64,000 bases of DNA from Alphaproteobacteria bacterium (lineage in GTDB: Bacteria > Pseudomonadota > Alphaproteobacteria > Rhizobiales > JAKIUO01): positions 1 through 64,000 of the forward strand of contig JAJRPI010000051.1 of NCBI GenBank assembly GCA_024280895.1. The letters are read 5' to 3'. Both the position numbers and the translations under genes were made by a program. This document shows, piece after piece, positions 1,989-61,236 of this stretch (within the stretch, counting starts at the first letter, position 1; the number at the start of each line of letters is the position of its first letter). Under the pieces are notes generated by a model, which was not told the DNA's origin, did not search any database, and saw only the letters and a program-made list of their open reading frames with translations.

Positions 1989-3281
1989 TTAACCCATCGC
2001 TTGATTGAGATCTTTGGCGATGTCGGTGGCATCTTCTATGCCGATGGACACACGAATAACCTCGGGACCGGCACCGGCTTTTACCAGTGCTTCTTCGCTG
2101 AGTTGCGAATGGGTTGTCGAGGCGGGATGGACGATGAGGGAGCGGGTGTCGCCAAGATTGGCCAGATGCGTGAACAGCTTGACATTGTTGACGAGGTTTT
2201 TGCCAGCTTCATAACCGCCGGTCAGTCCAAACGTGAACACGGAACCCGCACCTTTGGGCACATATTTTTGAGCCAGCGCGTGATTGGCGTGGTTTTCAAG
2301 GCCAGAATAATTGACCCAGGCAACACGGCTGTCTTTTTCCAGCCATTTGGCAACCGCAAGAGCATTGTCGCAATGGCGCTGCATGCGCAAAGGCAGGGTC
2401 TCGATGCCGTTCAAGATCAAGAAGGCATTCATGGGGGCAATGCAGGGGCCAAGATCGCGCAAGGATAAAACGCGGGCCGCGATGGCAAAAGCGATATGGC
2501 CAAAGGCTTCGCCAAACACCTCGCCGAGCACCATATTATTATAGCTTTCGCAAGGTTTGCTAAGGGTTGGGAATTTGTCGCTGGCCATCCAGTCAAAATT
2601 GCCGCCATCAACGATCATGCCCCCCATTGAGTTGCCATGTCCGCCAAGGAACTTGGTCAAGGAATGAACGATGATATTGGCGCCATGTTCAAACGGGCGG
2701 CACAGATAGGGGGTGGCCATGGTATTGTCGACGATGAGCGGGACCCCGGCTTTTTGGGCAACTGCGGCAATGGCTTCGATATCGGTAACAAGACCGGCGG
2801 GATTGGCGATTGATTCAATGAAAATGGCTTTGGTCTTATCGCTGACGAGGGCTTCAAAACTGGTTGGATCTTGCGCATCCGCCCATTGCACGCCCCAACC
2901 GAATTTTTTGAAGGACTGGGAGAACTGATTGATCGAGCCGCCATAGAGCTGGCGGGCCGCGATGATGTCATCGCCTGGCTCCATAAGATTATGAAAGACC
3001 ATCAGCTGTGCGCCATGACCGGACGCTGCGGCAACACCAGCGGTGCCGCCTTCAAGAGCGGCCACACGTTTTTCCAGCACGTCTTGTGTCGGGTTCATGA
3101 TGCGCGTGTAAATATTGCCAAATTCCTGCAGGCCAAACAGACGCGCTGCGTGGTCGGCATCTTGAAAGGCGTAAGCAGTTGTCTGGTAAATTGGAGTAGC
3201 ACGCGCACCGGTTGTTGGATCTGGCGCTGCTCCGGCGTGGATGGCGCGTGTGTTGAACGCCTGGGGAGTATCGTCTGTCAT
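1989..3281 (-). CDS. metY: O-acetylhomoserine sulfhydrylase (PLP-dependent)
   Basis: A 430-aa Cys/Met-metabolism PLP enzyme that converts O-acetylhomoserine plus sulfide (or methanethiol) to homocysteine (or methionine) in the cytosol. The lysine that binds PLP is in HSLTKFLGGHGNSMGG, preceded by VDNTMATPYLCRP with its conserved Asp. The N-terminus FNTRAIHAGAAPDPTTGA and ATPIYQTTAY are typical of the MetY/MetZ fold. Length and the NTMATPYLCRPFEHGA signature favour MetY over MetB or MetC. The ATG at 3281 begins TDDTPQAFNTRAIHAG, the usual family start; a longer upstream frame is not needed. It lies on the opposite strand between terminase and portal, which are normally adjacent in GTAs. It is not expected to have a GTA function. 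Confidence 0.92.
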   Translation of the reverse strand: MTDDTPQAFNTRAIHAGAAPDPTTGARATPIYQTTAYAFQDADHAARLFGLQEFGNIYTRIMNPTQDVLEKRVAALEGGTAGVAAASGHGAQLMVFHNLMEPGDDIIAARQLYGGSINQFSQSFKKFGWGVQWADAQDPTSFEALVSDKTKAIFIESIANPAGLVTDIEAIAAVAQKAGVPLIVDNTMATPYLCRPFEHGANIIVHSLTKFLGGHGNSMGGMIVDGGNFDWMASDKFPTLSKPCESYNNMVLGEVFGEAFGHIAFAIAARVLSLRDLGPCIAPMNAFLILNGIETLPLRMQRHCDNALAVAKWLEKDSRVAWVNYSGLENHANHALAQKYVPKGAGSVFTFGLTGGYEAGKNLVNNVKLFTHLANLGDTRSLIVHPASTTHSQLSEEALVKAGAGPEVIRVSIGIEDATDIAKDLNQAMG

Positions 3282-3329
3282 GATGTGTACTCTCTTGTTG
3301 TTTCTGTGTCGTTTTAATCTGCCGCATCT

Positions 3330-3362
3330 GTCAGCTGAGCGCAAATATATTTGTTCGCTGAC
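3330..3362. promoter_or_regulatory. Nested palindrome between metY and the portal gene
   Basis: Outer arms GTCAGC...GCTGAC enclose the perfect 12-bp palindrome CAAATATATTTG. It lies 49 bp upstream of the metY start and 41 bp upstream of the portal start, so it could be an operator for metY (for example a SAM/SAH-responsive repressor), a portal-side element, or an RNA hairpin. The function is inferred from position only. Confidence 0.45.
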
Positions 3363-3402
3363 TTTCTTCCCAAGGCGTTCCTCGAATTGGAGTTCAAACC
3401 AA

Positions 3403-4575
3403 ATGCCGTCTTTTTTCACAAAACTGTCCAGCTTGTTTGAGCAAAAACAAAGTGCCACTGGCAAATTGATTGCGATGCAAAGTGCGGGTGCGCCGGTATG
3501 GACGCCGCGAGACTATGCGGCGCTGGCGCGCGAAGGTTTTACGCAAAATGCGATATGTTATCGCTGCGTGCGCATGATTTCCGAAAGCGCCGCCTCGGTT
3601 CCCCTTGATCTTTTAGAGGGCAAGCAAGTGCTTGACGAGCATCCTCTTTTAACATTGCTCAAGCGTCCAAATAGTGTGCAATCGGGGCGTGACTTGCTTG
3701 AAGACTGGTACGGACATTTGATGGTGGCGGGCAATGCCTATTTGGAATCTGTCAGCCATGACGATGAAGTGATTGAGCTGCATGTGCTGCGCCCCGACCG
3801 TATGAAAGTGGTGCCAGGCGTTGATGGCTGGCCCGAATTTTATGAGTATAATGTGGCGGGGCAGCAGATGCGCTTTCATCAAGGCGGGGAGGGGCAAAAG
3901 CCCATTCTGCATATGTCCTTGTTTAATCCGCTTAACGATCATTATGGCATGAGCCCGATCGAAGCGGCCGCCTTTGGTATCGATATTCATAATGCGGCGG
4001 GCAGTTGGAACAAGGCGCTGCTTGATAATGCGGCGCGCCCGTCCGGAGCGCTGATTTATGATGCCAAGGATGCCAGCTTAAGCGTCGAGCAGTTCGAGCG
4101 TCTTAAAAATGAACTCGAGAGCGCTCATCAAGGTGCCAGCAATGCGGGGCGGCCGCTTTTGCTTGAGGGCGGCCTCGACTGGAAGCCCATGGGCTATTCG
4201 CCGCGCGATATGGATTTTATTGAAGCCAAATGGGTGGCGGCAAGAGAGATCGCTCTGGCGCTTGGCGTGCCGCCCATGCTGCTGGGCATTCCCGGCGACA
4301 ATACTTATTCAAACTATGCCGAGGCCAATCGAACCTTCTGGCGACAAACAGTGTTACCGCTGGTCAATCGCACAAGTAGCGCGTTGACCAATTGGCTTGA
4401 TGATACCTACGGGGAGGGGATTGTCTTGAAACCTGATCTTAATAATGTCGAGGCGTTGGCATCAGAACGAGAGGCGCGTTGGCAGCGCATTGCCAAGGCC
4501 GGCTTTCTATCGATTAATGAAAAACGTGAAGCGCTGGGTTATGACCCTGTTGAGGATGGAGAGGAAATAGGGTGA
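3403..4575 (+). CDS. GTA portal protein (HK97 family, g3)
   Basis: A 390-aa HK97-type portal, the dodecameric ring at the packaging vertex. Typical blocks are present: YRCVRMISESAASVPL near the N-terminus, LEDWYGHLMVAGNAYLE, HMSLFNPLNDHYGMSPIEAA, WNKALLDNAARPSGAL and REIALALGVPPMLLG with downstream NRTFWRQTVLPL. ATG 3403 was chosen because the longer open frame back to 3241 runs antisense to the metY 5' end and family portals start close to this point (MPSFFTKLSSLF). The upstream gap with metY means this gene probably needs its own promoter or read-through past metY. Confidence 0.93.
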   Translation: MPSFFTKLSSLFEQKQSATGKLIAMQSAGAPVWTPRDYAALAREGFTQNAICYRCVRMISESAASVPLDLLEGKQVLDEHPLLTLLKRPNSVQSGRDLLEDWYGHLMVAGNAYLESVSHDDEVIELHVLRPDRMKVVPGVDGWPEFYEYNVAGQQMRFHQGGEGQKPILHMSLFNPLNDHYGMSPIEAAAFGIDIHNAAGSWNKALLDNAARPSGALIYDAKDASLSVEQFERLKNELESAHQGASNAGRPLLLEGGLDWKPMGYSPRDMDFIEAKWVAAREIALALGVPPMLLGIPGDNTYSNYAEANRTFWRQTVLPLVNRTSSALTNWLDDTYGEGIVLKPDLNNVEALASEREARWQRIAKAGFLSINEKREALGYDPVEDGEEIG

Positions 4576-7032: not shown

Positions 7033-7249
7033 TCTCACGGCTATTCGCGCGTTGCGCGGCCTCCGATGGGGCGCGCAACGCGCGGCGCGTAGTCACGCTT
7101 GCCTCGGCGGGTACACCTGCGGAGTTCTTTTTTCTCAATAAGATTTTTGTATGTGAAAAGAATTCCGATGTACTCATCGGCAAGGGCGACTGCCCGTCGA
7201 GCTTTGCTCGCCTGTCGGAGGCCGCGCGTTAGCGCGAATAGCCGTGAGA
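7033..7249. repeat. Long palindromic repeat, full copy between g5 and g6
   Basis: About 217 bp with ~34-bp terminal inverted repeats: left arm TCTCACGGCTATTCGCGC...GCGGCCTCCGA (7033-7066), right arm its reverse complement (7215-7249). A second internal pair GGAGTTCTTTT / AAAAGAATTCC makes it a nested hairpin. It fills the 322-bp gap between capsid and connector; no gene is visible there. Confidence 0.85.
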
Positions 7250-7350
7250 CAATTATTGCCCGCTTGCGGGCAATGAGGGGAGGTGGGGGTGTTCCCTCCC
7301 TGCCACGTCCGCCTCCCCATTTCCATATTTAAAACCTGAAGGAATGTATC

Positions 7351-9778: not shown

Positions 9779-9800
9779 TAAATACAAAAGGAGAGCCGTC

Positions 9801-10214
9801 ATGGTTGCACAAAAAGGCAAGGATCTGTTGTTGAAGGTCGATGATGACGGGGTCGGCAGCTTCGTGACAATGGCTGGATTGCGGGCCAAAAGCCTGTCAT
9901 TCAACGCTGGCACCGTCGATATCACCCACACAGAATCGGTCGGCCAATGGCGCGAATTGCTGGCTGGTGCTGGTATCAAGAGTGCCAGGATCACAGGCTC
10001 TGGCGTGTTTAAAGATGCCGCAAGTGATGAACGTGCCCGGCAGCTGTTTTTCGATGGCATCATTCGCGACTGGCAAATCATCGTGCCAGGTTTTGGCACT
10101 ATTTCTGGTGCCTTCCAGATCACCGCGCTGGAATTTTCCGGCAATCACGACAATGAGGTGAGTTTCGAGCTGGGCCTTGAATCAGCGGGTGCGCTCTCTT
10201 TCACTCCGGTTTAA
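9801..10214 (+). CDS. GTA major tail protein (g9)
   Basis: 137-aa tail-tube protein of the phage tail 2 (TP901-1-like) family. The start MVAQKGKDLLLKVDDD at ATG 9801 has AAAGGAG upstream; the longer open frame to 9732 lies in repeat sequence and was rejected. Conserved features: LRAKSLSFNAGTVDITHTES, WRELLAGAGIKSARITGSGVF and FEISFELGLESAG-like end (VSFELGLESAGALSF). It is isolated by terminators upstream and a repeat downstream, so as the most abundant tail component it may have its own promoter. Confidence 0.92.
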   Translation: MVAQKGKDLLLKVDDDGVGSFVTMAGLRAKSLSFNAGTVDITHTESVGQWRELLAGAGIKSARITGSGVFKDAASDERARQLFFDGIIRDWQIIVPGFGTISGAFQITALEFSGNHDNEVSFELGLESAGALSFTPV

Positions 10215-10218
10215 TATA

Positions 10219-10539
10219 TCTCACGGCTATTCGCGCTAACGCGCGGCCTCCGATGGGCGGGCTACAGCCCGGCGCGTGGTCACGCTTGCCTCCCGCTGGT
10301 CGGTTTTCTTTTTCCATTCAATAATGTTGTCGAGGTAAAAGAAAACCGCATGTGTACTCACCAAGGCAAGCGTGACTACGCGTCGAGCTTTGCTCGCTCG
10401 TCGAAGGCCGCGCAACGCGCGAATAGCCGCGAGACAATAAAACCAAAACCGCAGGCGTACTCGCCAAGGCAAGGCCGACTGGCCGCCGAGCTGTGCTCGC
10501 CTATCGGAGGCCCGAGCGAAGCAAGGAATTGCCGTGAGA
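10219..10539. repeat. Long palindromic repeat, compound copy between g9 and g10
   Basis: Left arm TCTCACGGCTATTCGCGC... at 10219-10253, a right arm at 10401-10434 and a second right arm at 10504-10539 ending TTGCCGTGAGA. The internal arms CGGTTTTCTTTT and AAAAGAAAACCG pair perfectly over 12 bp. It fills the whole 345-bp gap; no gene is present. Confidence 0.85.
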
Positions 10540-10559
10540 TTTAAAAAAGGATCAATAAC

Positions 10560-10928
10560 GTGGCCAATAAATATCGCGGCGAAATCAGCGCCGAATTTGA
10601 TGGTGCCAAGCAGACTTTGTGTTTGACGCTTGGGGCGCTTGCTGAACTGGAAGAGGCATTTGGCGAGCAGGATTTACTGTCGCTTGCCGAGCGTTTTTCA
10701 TCGGGGCGTATTACCTCGAGTGATGCGCTTGCCATCCTTGGTGCGGGTTTGCGTGGAGCTGGTCACCCGATCAGTGATGAGGATGTTGGCAAGTTGAAAG
10801 TCGAAGGCGGGGCGGCTGGTTATATTTCAATTGTCGCAAGGCTGCTGACAGCGACCTTTGGCGATAATGAAGAGCCATCGGTGCGCGAACCGATCAAAAG
10901 AGGCGCGCCCAGCAAGCCGGGAAAGTAA
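10560..10928 (+). CDS. GTA tail assembly chaperone, short form (g10, GTA_gp10 family)
   Basis: 122-aa protein of the GTA gp10 family (ISAEFDGAKQTLCLTLGALAELEEAFG; SLAERFSSGRITSSDALAILGAGLRG), the equivalent of the lambda gpG-type chaperone that coats the tape measure before tube assembly. GTG 10560 follows AAAAGGAT with an eight-base gap. The last codons contain GGGAAAG (10919-10925), the lambda G-T slippery heptamer, in the right phase for a -1 shift into the g10.1 frame, one codon before the UAA. Basic tail GAPSKPGK. Confidence 0.88.
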   Translation: MANKYRGEISAEFDGAKQTLCLTLGALAELEEAFGEQDLLSLAERFSSGRITSSDALAILGAGLRGAGHPISDEDVGKLKVEGGAAGYISIVARLLTATFGDNEEPSVREPIKRGAPSKPGK

Positions 10929-10967
10929 CCAACTCCCGGGCTTCAGAACCGTTTCCCTGGAAGCGGG
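10919..10967 (+). promoter_or_regulatory. Predicted -1 programmed ribosomal frameshift signal (tail chaperone G-GT type)
   Basis: Slippery heptamer G GGA AAG at 10919-10925 in the g10 frame, then nine nt, then a hairpin: CCC (10935-37) with GCTTC (10940-44) pairing GAAGC (10960-64) with GGG (10965-67), loop of 15 nt. A -1 slip gives GGG AAA GTA ACC and reads on without a stop into g10.1. The stem also covers the GTG at 10967. Heptamer, phase and spacing fit known tail-chaperone signals. Confidence 0.8.
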
Positions 10968-11155
10968 TGATGGGGGTGGGACTTGGTATGCTGAAACTTC
11001 CCCCGGATCACTTCTGGTCGATGACCATTCCAGAACTTGAAGCGGCGGTGAGTGGCACCTTTGGTGATGGTGTTTTGGCGGCGCCGCTTGCGCGCAAAGA
11101 ACTTGATGAGCTGATGCAGCGTTTTCCAGATGAAGGAGAAATTGGAAATGTATGA
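10967..11155 (+). CDS. Phage tail assembly chaperone, GTA g10.1 / long-form domain (rcc01693-like)
   Basis: The first usual start codon (GTG 10967) gives 62 aa: GVGLGMLKLPPDHFWSMTIPELEAAV and a charged C-terminus. This is the small GTA tail assembly chaperone (TAC/DUF2376-like) family, whose members carry an FPW...M motif just before this point. Here that motif (SEPFPWKRVM) is encoded at 10943-10972 in the same frame but upstream of any ATG, GTG or TTG, and the frame is closed further upstream by a TAA near 10866. It is therefore best explained as the extension of g10 made by -1 frameshifting at 10919-10925. GTG 10967 has only a weak ribosome site, which is hidden in the hairpin. It overlaps g11 by 8 nt. 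Confidence 0.8.
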   Translation: MMGVGLGMLKLPPDHFWSMTIPELEAAVSGTFGDGVLAAPLARKELDELMQRFPDEGEIGNV

Positions 11156-11711
11156 TGAAGTTGCCGGACTAACGGTTCGGGTCAATGCGGACACCTCGCA
11201 ATTTAATGCCGGACTAAAAGAAGCGGCGCAATTGGGGGCGCAGTTTTCGCGTTCTATCTCATCGGCTTTTGAGGACGCCATTTTCAAGGGCAAGGATCTT
11301 GGCGATGTGTTTCGCTCCTTGGCGCTTGATATGTCTAAAATGGTTTTCAAATCGGCCTTCAAGCCGTTGGAACAAGCGGTTGGCGGTGCTTTTTCGCAGC
11401 TATTTAGCGGCTTCGGTGGTGCTGGTGGGGCTCCTAGCTTGTTTGCCAAGGGCGGTGTTGTTGCGGCACCAACCGCCTTTTCACTGGGTAATGGAAAATC
11501 TGGCATCGCTGGGGAGGCGGGGCCTGAAGCGATCTTGCCTTTGATGCGCGGTGCAGATGGCCGCCTTGGCGTGCGCCAGGCAGGGGGTGGGCGCAGCATT
11601 ACGGTCAATTTCAATGTCTCGAGCCCTGATGTTGGCGGCTTTAAACGATCAGAAACGCAAATCAATGCCATGCTCAATCGAGCGGTGGCGCGCGGAGAAA
11701 GGAATCTCTAA
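11148..11711 (+). CDS. GTA tail tape measure protein, short (g11)
   Basis: 187-aa tape-measure-like protein. DEVAGLTVRVNADTSQFNAGLKEAAQLG is the usual amphipathic start, followed by a small-residue-rich segment (GGAFSQLFSGFGGAGGAPSLFAKGG) and AGEAGPEAILPLMRGADGRLGV, the lambda-family tail tip segment. ATG 11148 has GGAG at a good distance. Tape measures set tail length; at under 200 aa this fits the short GTA tail (RcGTA g11 is about 220 aa) and not a full phage. A small tail needs the chaperone pair encoded just upstream. Confidence 0.88.
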   Translation: MYDEVAGLTVRVNADTSQFNAGLKEAAQLGAQFSRSISSAFEDAIFKGKDLGDVFRSLALDMSKMVFKSAFKPLEQAVGGAFSQLFSGFGGAGGAPSLFAKGGVVAAPTAFSLGNGKSGIAGEAGPEAILPLMRGADGRLGVRQAGGGRSITVNFNVSSPDVGGFKRSETQINAMLNRAVARGERNL

Positions 11712-18119: not shown

Positions 18120-18144
18120 ATGATCAGATAAATTATCACTTTTG

Positions 18145-18168
18145 AACCCGCCTTTTGGCGGTTTTTTT
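18145..18168 (+). terminator. Intrinsic terminator after the GTA structural genes
   Basis: Stem AACCCGCC / GGCGGTTT with loop TTTT and seven T. It separates the structural transcript from the endolysin gene, whose ribosome site lies just downstream, and rules out the longer TTG 18142 start for that gene. Confidence 0.8.
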
Positions 18169-18186
18169 GTGCGAGAGGATCGGCCT

Positions 18187-19251
18187 TTGCCAGAACAGAC
18201 ATTGTTGACTTATGCGCAGTTGCGCAGGCTTAGTCCTCGCGGCAAGCGCGACATTCTGGAAGGGATTGCTGCCCACTCATCAATATTGGAGACGTATGAT
18301 CTGACCGTCAATAAATTGCGTTTGTGCCATTTCCTGGCACAGGCAGCACATGAGACGGCGGGTTTTCGCACATTGGTTGAATATGGCAGTACCCGCTATT
18401 TCCGGCGTCGCTATGGGCACCGGCGCGATCTTGGCAATGTCAGAATATCGGACGGCTCGAGGTTTCGGGGCAGGGGGATTTTTCAACTGACCGGGCGTGC
18501 CAATTACCGCCGGTTCGGGCGGCTTCTTGACATTGATCTGGAAGCTTTTCCTTTGCTTGCCAAAAAGCCAGAGCTGTCACTGCGCATCGCTTGTGAATAT
18601 TGGCAGCGTCATGATCTCAACCGTTTTGCGGACGCCAATGATATTCGCGCCATTACCAAGCGCATCAATGGCGGCTTTAATGGCCTGCAGGACCGGCGGC
18701 GCTATCTTCAACGTGCCATGTCGATCTGGATGCCGGGCGCCAAGCCTTTTGCAGATCAGCGCATTGTGCAATTTGGCGATCGCGGCAAACAAGTCATGCA
18801 ACTGCAATCATTGTTGCGCGCCACGGGGCGCCGCATTGCTGTTGATGGTCTGTTTGGCGATCAAACGCTGCGGGTGCTGAAAAACTTTCAATCCAGACAT
18901 CGCTTGCGAGCAGATGGGCTATTTGGGCGCCGATCAAGACAGGCACTTGCGCGCACTAACTCGCAATCAGGCAAGGCAAAACCTCATAAACCTCCCATTC
19001 CCTCACCAACCAAACCAAAGGAAACGAAAATGGATCAATGGAAAAGCTATCTTTCAAGTCGGACAATCTGGGCCAATCTAATCGGCTTTGGCGCTCTGGC
19101 ACTCGATATTCTGGGTTTTAACGGGTTTAGTACCGAGGATAAGTCCCAACTCGTCGACCAGGTGCTAAAGCTTGTGGAAGCCGGTGGGTTTATCGCTGGC
19201 GTTATATTCCGGGCGTTGGCTCGCAATCGTTTGGGCCCGCATATGTTTTAG
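18187..19251 (+). CDS. GTA endolysin: GH19 chitinase-like hydrolase + peptidoglycan-binding domain + holin-like membrane tail
   Basis: 354 aa in three parts. Residues ~1-190 are a GH19 lysozyme/chitinase-like domain, catalytic Glu in AAHETAGFRTLVEYG and substrate loop FRGRGIFQLTGRANY. Residues ~195-265 are a PG_binding_1 domain (GDRGKQVMQLQSLLR; VDGLFGDQTLRVLKNFQ). After a Pro/Lys-rich linker the last ~74 residues contain two hydrophobic helices (TIWANLIGFGALALDILG and FIAGVIFRALA), as in small phage holin-like proteins. TTG 18187 was chosen because AGAGGA stands seven bases upstream, right after the terminator. It probably lyses the producer cell to release particles. An internal ATG at 19030 with its own ribosome site may make the membrane part alone. 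Confidence 0.85.
   Translation: MPEQTLLTYAQLRRLSPRGKRDILEGIAAHSSILETYDLTVNKLRLCHFLAQAAHETAGFRTLVEYGSTRYFRRRYGHRRDLGNVRISDGSRFRGRGIFQLTGRANYRRFGRLLDIDLEAFPLLAKKPELSLRIACEYWQRHDLNRFADANDIRAITKRINGGFNGLQDRRRYLQRAMSIWMPGAKPFADQRIVQFGDRGKQVMQLQSLLRATGRRIAVDGLFGDQTLRVLKNFQSRHRLRADGLFGRRSRQALARTNSQSGKAKPHKPPIPSPTKPKETKMDQWKSYLSSRTIWANLIGFGALALDILGFNGFSTEDKSQLVDQVLKLVEAGGFIAGVIFRALARNRLGPHMF
19030..19251 (+). other. Possible internal translation start: holin-like 73-aa product
   Basis: ATG 19030 (MDQWKSYLSSRTIWANLIG) lies in frame inside the endolysin gene with AAAGGA seven bases upstream. The product would be the two-helix membrane segment only, which resembles stand-alone phage holin-like proteins. 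It could be a relic of two fused genes or a working dual start. Confidence 0.5.
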
Positions 19252-60888: not shown

Positions 60889-60914
60889 GGCTCTATTTGT
60901 CTCGTATTAATTTG

Positions 60915-61223
60915 TCTCACGGCTAATCCTCGCAAGTTCGGGCCTCCGACGGGCGCGCAATGCGCGGCGCGTAGTCACGCTTGCCTCCCTATGGTCGGAG
61001 TTCTTTTCCAATAGACAATTTAAAAGGGAACAAGAATACCGATGCTTGCATCGGCAAGCCCGACTGGCCGCCGGGCTTAGGCCCGCCCCAGCGGAGGCCC
61101 GGCGTTAGCCGGAATAGTCGTGAGCTCAAACAAAACCACCGATGTACACATCGGCAAGCGTGACCACGCGCCGGGCTTTGCCCGCCCGTCGGAGGCAGTG
61201 CGGAGCACGAATAGCCGGGAGAC
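60915..61223. repeat. Long palindromic repeat, compound copy after the efflux genes
   Basis: Left arm TCTCACGGCTAATCCTCG...GGCCTCCGA (60915-60949), right arms at 61091-61124 and 61189-61222 (ATAGCCGGGAGA). Internal arms GGAGTTCTT / AAGAATACC. Same compound layout as the 10.2-10.5 kb copy: one left arm and two right arms. Confidence 0.85.
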
Positions 61224-61236
61224 AAACCAAACCCCG

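Follow-up and report, generated by a model that had tools for sequence, protein, structure and literature searches.

Tail assembly chaperones of long phage tails are thought to be produced generally as a fusion. The G/GT chaperones of lambda exemplify a frameshift that is conserved in long-tailed phages (Xu, Hendrix and Duda 2004, cited in PMC3556154). Whether the same device operates in a gene transfer agent (GTA), a domesticated virus particle, is the question raised by a locus in which the second chaperone gene, g10.1, lies in the −1 frame of the first, g10, and has no usual start codon in front of its conserved motif. The stretch of DNA analysed (the window; 64,000 nt) comprises positions 1–64,000 of the forward strand of contig JAJRPI010000051.1 from Alphaproteobacteria bacterium (Rhizobiales, JAKIUO01; GCA_024280895.1). 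The evidence presented below points strongly to −1 ribosomal frameshifting of the lambda G/GT type as the process that would join g10 and g10.1.

The GTA cluster and its chaperone genes

The window contains a head–tail cluster resembling that of RcGTA, with genes for portal, protease, capsid, g9, g10, g10.1, tape measure, and the tail-tip proteins through the megatron, and the GTA-specific tail genes match the profiles TIGR02217, TIGR02218, TIGR02219, and NF048004 (megatron). Judged by its genes, the cluster is of the RcGTA head–tail type. Two open reading frames separate the tail tube gene from that of the tape measure (profile order PF06199, PF11836, PF09550, NF058675), and both belong to Pfam families named TAC; no match to g10 was found among PDB sequences. 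The features of the junction, all on the forward strand, are the following.

9798–10214 (+): g9, major tail protein (tail tube), upstream of g10 (PF06199, 2e-45; TIGR02126)
10560–10928 (+): g10, tail assembly chaperone 1 with a putative gpG-like role (PF11836, GTA-gp10, E 8e-30)
10899–10903 (+): AGAGG, possible internal Shine-Dalgarno-like stimulator with a putative role, 15 nt upstream of the heptamer
10919–10925 (+): slippery heptamer G_GGA_AAG, in phase, with TAA directly 3'
10925–11155 (+): −1 frame extension with the g10.1 domain (PF09550, 1e-18; TIGR02216, 6e-19)
10935–10967 (+): arms of the hairpin proposed in the first-pass annotation, present in the sequence, unconserved, and different from the predicted minimum-energy fold
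10952–10960 (+): FPW codons (TTT CCC TGG) of g10.1, upstream of every ATG, GTG, or TTG in the −1 frame
10967–10972 (+): GTG and ATG, candidate internal starts of g10.1 under the rival explanation, with GGAAG at 10959–10963
11130–11711 (+): g11, tail tape measure, its 5' part overlapping the end of g10.1 (NF058675, RcGTA_tape, 2e-45, below the curated cut-off)

Other elements interrupt or adjoin the cluster. A gene for a PLP-dependent enzyme of Cys/Met metabolism (1989–3464, −; PF01053, 3e-127) splits it by sitting between the likely terminase ORF (427–1845) and the portal gene. A possible lysis gene (18142–19251, +), whose ORF combines a glycoside hydrolase 19 domain with a peptidoglycan-binding domain, follows shortly 3' of the tail genes. 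A dispersed intergenic repeat of approximately 70–95 bp, which has 55 matches in the genome and often occurs as inverted pairs, forms two clusters between GTA genes (g5/g6 and g9/g10); its copies in the window lie at 7033–7128 (−), 7169–7253 (+), 10208–10291 (−), 10340–10545 (+), 60912–60986 (−), and 61132–61225 (+).

A slippery heptamer in phase with g10

The gene g10 encodes 122 amino acids, with a GTG start preceded 8 nt upstream by AAGGA and a TAA stop at 10926–10928. Because it spans 10560–10928, its end codons are CCG GGA AAG TAA and the heptamer falls in the phase G_GGA_AAG; the full 3' end reads AGC AAG CCG GGA AAG TAA. This bears out the slip phase that the first-pass annotation had assigned to GGGAAAG, a motif that ranked among the top three for slipperiness in Escherichia coli measurements (PMC4066793). 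The same annotation had described an open −1 frame leading from the heptamer into g10.1, and indeed no stop interrupts this frame from 10871 until the TGA at 11153–11155, and it carries a significant chaperone domain. Its statement that the FPW motif is encoded upstream of any usual start codon also holds, since ATG, GTG, or TTG codons of the −1 frame occur only at 10967 or later; no near-cognate start was found between the heptamer and FPW in this sequence. The locus has these features of the lambda G/GT type: a phased heptamer, a −1 frame that remains open past the first stop, and the lack of a start before the domain.

Two details of the earlier proposal require revision. The junction peptide, given as AGKVTNSR, should read ...SKPGK/VTNSR... 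(the slash marks the junction), because tandem slippage decodes CCG-GGA-AAG in frame 0 first. The hairpin following the heptamer exists insofar as its arms (10935–10937 and 10940–10944 with 10960–10967) can be located, but its role as a conserved stimulator finds no support: the predicted fold of this stretch is another one (z = −2.0), and neither structure is conserved in the four relatives. A stimulatory RNA element is, however, not needed by every frameshift of the lambda type.

Conservation in the family

The first-pass annotation had made its proposal depend on the conservation of heptamer and phase in relatives. Among the five genomes of the family that were compared, all five possess GGGAAAG followed by TAA, an open −1 frame, and a distance of 26 nt from the stop to FPW; the linker from the g10 stop to FPW differs in its bases but has the same length and frame throughout. 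Among the amino-acid-invariant g10 codons with four-fold degeneracy, only 7 of 43 are identical in all five genomes, and the last four codons of the gene (AAG CCG GGA AAG) represent its longest run of identical codons. The retention of the heptamer and TAA in the family exceeds chance. The AGAGG motif upstream of the heptamer is kept in four of the five members and absent from the fifth (L006). Heptamer, phase, open −1 frame, missing start, and their conservation are direct observations on the sequences.

Survey across Alphaproteobacteria

A survey of relatives, the order, the class, and a named genome collection yielded 213 distinct loci with both genes. The frame of g10.1 relative to g10 is −1 in 187 of these loci, +1 in 19, and 0 in 7, and 87 of the 187 loci in the −1 frame lack a start upstream of the motif. 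A comparison across alphaproteobacteria had been suggested as a check; in the region that is open in both frames, 74 of these 87 start-less loci contain an XXXYYYZ heptamer in phase, whereas out of phase the counts are only 7 and 6. The expectation from codon permutation is 24.5 (sd 4.0), and none of 300 permutations exceeded 36. The cleanest class, heptamers of the type NNNAAAN, occurs 20 times in phase versus 2 and 3 times out of phase (expectation 2.5, maximum 8) and is present in 16 family-level groups. When each of the 46 family-level groups contributes a single locus, the counts become 35.4 in phase versus 4.6 and 3.9.

In a second sample, drawn from viral contigs and limited to g10 proteins new to the survey, the heptamer is in phase in 30 of 31 loci, versus 1 and 0 for the other phases; this set is only partly independent because its lineages overlap with those of the first. 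A tree-based comparison of "no start" against "heptamer" in independent pairs, of which 12 were supported, showed no clear association in either direction; the g10 tree is short, and many xTGA "starts" may be incidental. Where the motif of start-less loci lies beyond the g10 stop, FPW is exact in 33 of 44 loci. Cultivable relatives whose g10.1 is start-less include Hyphomicrobium facile, Methylocystis rosea, and Rhodobium orientis. On one viral contig (L364, ORF from 1687), g10 and g10.1 share a reading frame and are joined near the C run GCC CCC TTT AGC, an arrangement that may represent a true fusion or an indel or sequencing error.

Types of slippery sites and possible stimulators

The heptamer type varies by lineage, comprising GGGAAAG/C, AAAAAAG, CCCTTTC within the FPW codons, and AAACCCT. 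CCCTTTC is found in 30 loci, mostly within the FPW codons, which themselves partly force its phase; other heptamers are AAACCCT (17 loci), GGGAAAG (10), CCCTTTG (6), GGGAAAC (4), and a few more. In the CCCTTTC class, frame 0 reads P-F-P-G and ends approximately 12 nt later, and frame −1 reads P-F-P-W. CCCTTTC(CCT), an unusual site, is embedded in the FPW codons in such a way that P-F-P is encoded in both frames. An in-phase C_CCT is present in many of the start-less loci that have no heptamer, a tetramer that was slippery in E. coli when measured with a pseudoknot (PMC4066793) and possibly represents a weaker slippery site near the end of g10; in L088, L128, L133, L143, L085, and L017, for instance, which are start-less and have no heptamer, CGC CCT or a similar C_CCT lies in phase near the g10 end.

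Shine-Dalgarno-like 4-mers are located 5–16 nt upstream of the heptamer in 49 of 74 loci (codon-shuffled expectation 28.0, sd 3.8), an excess that may reflect stimulation or merely the order of codons in an E/G-rich stretch. The host genome, whose tRNA genes were taken from individual loci, encodes tRNA-Lys(CUU) beside tRNA-Lys(UUU), and slippage on AAG may therefore be lower than in the host of lambda; nevertheless, insertion sequences still use AAAG-type motifs in species with both tRNA-Lys (PMC4066793).

Alternative explanations

The main alternative to a frameshift is that g10.1 is made separately, with translation beginning at GTG 10967 or ATG 10970 either as internal initiation or coupled to the termination of g10, so that the heptamer would be incidental. 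Several observations are compatible with it: GGAAG (10959–10963) is placed 6 nt before ATG 10970, a methionine at the place of this ATG is common in the family, the public annotation of phage homologs starts after the motif, and Rhodobacteraceae use a separate g10.1 start, though one that precedes the domain. Initiation at 10967 or 10970 would, however, leave the FPW codons untranslated, yet FPW is conserved in start-less loci; it would explain neither the in-phase heptamers nor why the last codons of g10 are conserved, and L006 lacks both GGAAG and GTG. A separate start is therefore improbable.

Transcript slippage and initiation at a non-canonical codon, as routes into the −1 frame other than a slip of the ribosome, are considerably less likely still. 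No support for either process was found in the window; the run consists only of GGG AAA, which is generally too short for efficient slippage of the polymerase, and near-cognate starts between heptamer and FPW are absent here and conserved in none of the relatives. An assembly or sequencing error in a single gene might be suspected in a draft genome of 96 contigs, and the single-frame arrangement on viral contig L364 would be in line with such an error, but g10.1 occupies the −1 frame in 187 of 213 loci. The presence of the same two frames in five separate genomes refutes this explanation, which retains practically no probability.

Proposed mechanism

Ribosomal frameshifting at G_GGA_AAG is thus the favored explanation; that the slip occurs, how often it does so, and what its products do are predictions, set out as follows. 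In this RcGTA-like GTA, g10 and g10.1 would together represent one unit of the lambda G/GT type. Most ribosomes would stop at TAA 10926 and release g10 with its 122 amino acids. A minority would slip back by one base, with tRNA-Gly and tRNA-Lys on G_GGA_AAG re-pairing with GGG AAA, and would then translate past the stop in the −1 frame. The predicted extension of 76 amino acids after the slip, ending at the TGA at 11153–11155, would yield a fusion of 198 amino acids with the sequence ...SKPGK followed by VTNSRASEPFPWKR... at the junction. If the roles match those in lambda, the tape measure protein would be the binding partner of g10, the tail tube protein would be recruited through the g10.1 portion of the fusion, and the frequency of the slip would set the ratio of g10 to fusion. 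The fusion proposed in the first-pass annotation remains a prediction, which is supported by the conservation of heptamer and phase in the family and by in-phase heptamers in most start-less loci across 46 family-level groups.

Comparison with lambda, other phages, and RcGTA

The locus resembles lambda G/GT in how its genes are arranged (tail tube gene first, then the two chaperones, the second of them in the −1 frame, then the tape measure gene), in having GGGAAAG as its heptamer, and in a second ORF without its own start. Differences from lambda are the stop directly after the heptamer, the host with two tRNA-Lys species, and the location in a chromosomal GTA cluster.

The same two chaperone families as in g10 and g10.1 are encoded by Desulfofustis phage LS06-2018-MD02 (OP947159) and Siphoviridae ctuI7215 (MW202777), where GGGAAAC lies in phase and begins 10 and 7 nt, respectively, before the g10 stop; unlike the present locus, both are phages rather than GTAs, and their heptamer ends in C. 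A −1 frame chaperone 2 also occurs in Rhizobium phage 16-3, although a heptamer of the form XXXYYYZ was not found there. The annotated chaperone 2 genes of OP947159 (L296, 737–922), MW202777 (L297, 1257–1421), and phage 16-3 (L425, 8888–9040) begin only beyond the conserved W motif and look N-terminally truncated. Frameshifting has been described for phages of Rhodobacter capsulatus (PMC8601537). The R. capsulatus phages RcRhea and RcKemmy possess GTA-like tail-tip genes and a chaperone CDS joined from two pieces in the database record, with GGGAAAC, but their chaperones differ and do not match the g10 and g10.1 profiles.

RcGTA of R. capsulatus, the species assigned here to the one genome (G1074) with a 100% match to g12 from the RcGTA structure (6tba), has the same gene families in the same order, with g10.1 corresponding to g10.5 ("tail chaperone 2"). 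Unlike the present locus, it has no in-phase heptamer, and the GTG start of its g10.1 overlaps the TGA of g10 (L331). Nearly all of 35 other Rhodobacteraceae loci likewise have a g10.1 start at or near the g10 stop, most of them overlapping, and an in-phase heptamer leading into a −1 frame g10.1 was found in none of the 35. Since Rhodobacteraceae do without the heptamer, the fusion would not be needed in every GTA.

Implications

The first-pass annotation was not aware of an earlier report for GTAs, and no description of g10–g10.1 frameshifting was found among 5.39 million open-access papers, a set with no preprints and few subscription papers. A paper on the origin of RcGTA names g10 and g10.5 as chaperones 1 and 2 and does not bring in frameshifting (PMC11409702), and the RcGTA structure paper makes no mention of chaperones or frameshifting. 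The mechanism is known but seems to be unreported at this place, and the lack of the signal in the model RcGTA may explain the silence of the literature. The more interesting part is the combination of lineage-specific sites with their absence from the model organism. There is an even chance that the link between the GTA chaperones has changed repeatedly, with slippery sites specific to individual lineages and with Rhodobacteraceae having lost the fusion and using overlapping stop and start codons; the fusion would then be dispensable after domestication.

Because g10 and g10.1 are treated as separate genes and RcGTA lacks the signal, the product is probably missing or truncated in many annotations of Hyphomicrobiales-type GTAs. 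The slippery site would provide a marker by which the descent of GTAs from phages can be followed, and a single type of tail whose chaperones are made either by frameshifting or separately would offer a natural comparison by which the importance of the G:GT ratio becomes testable.
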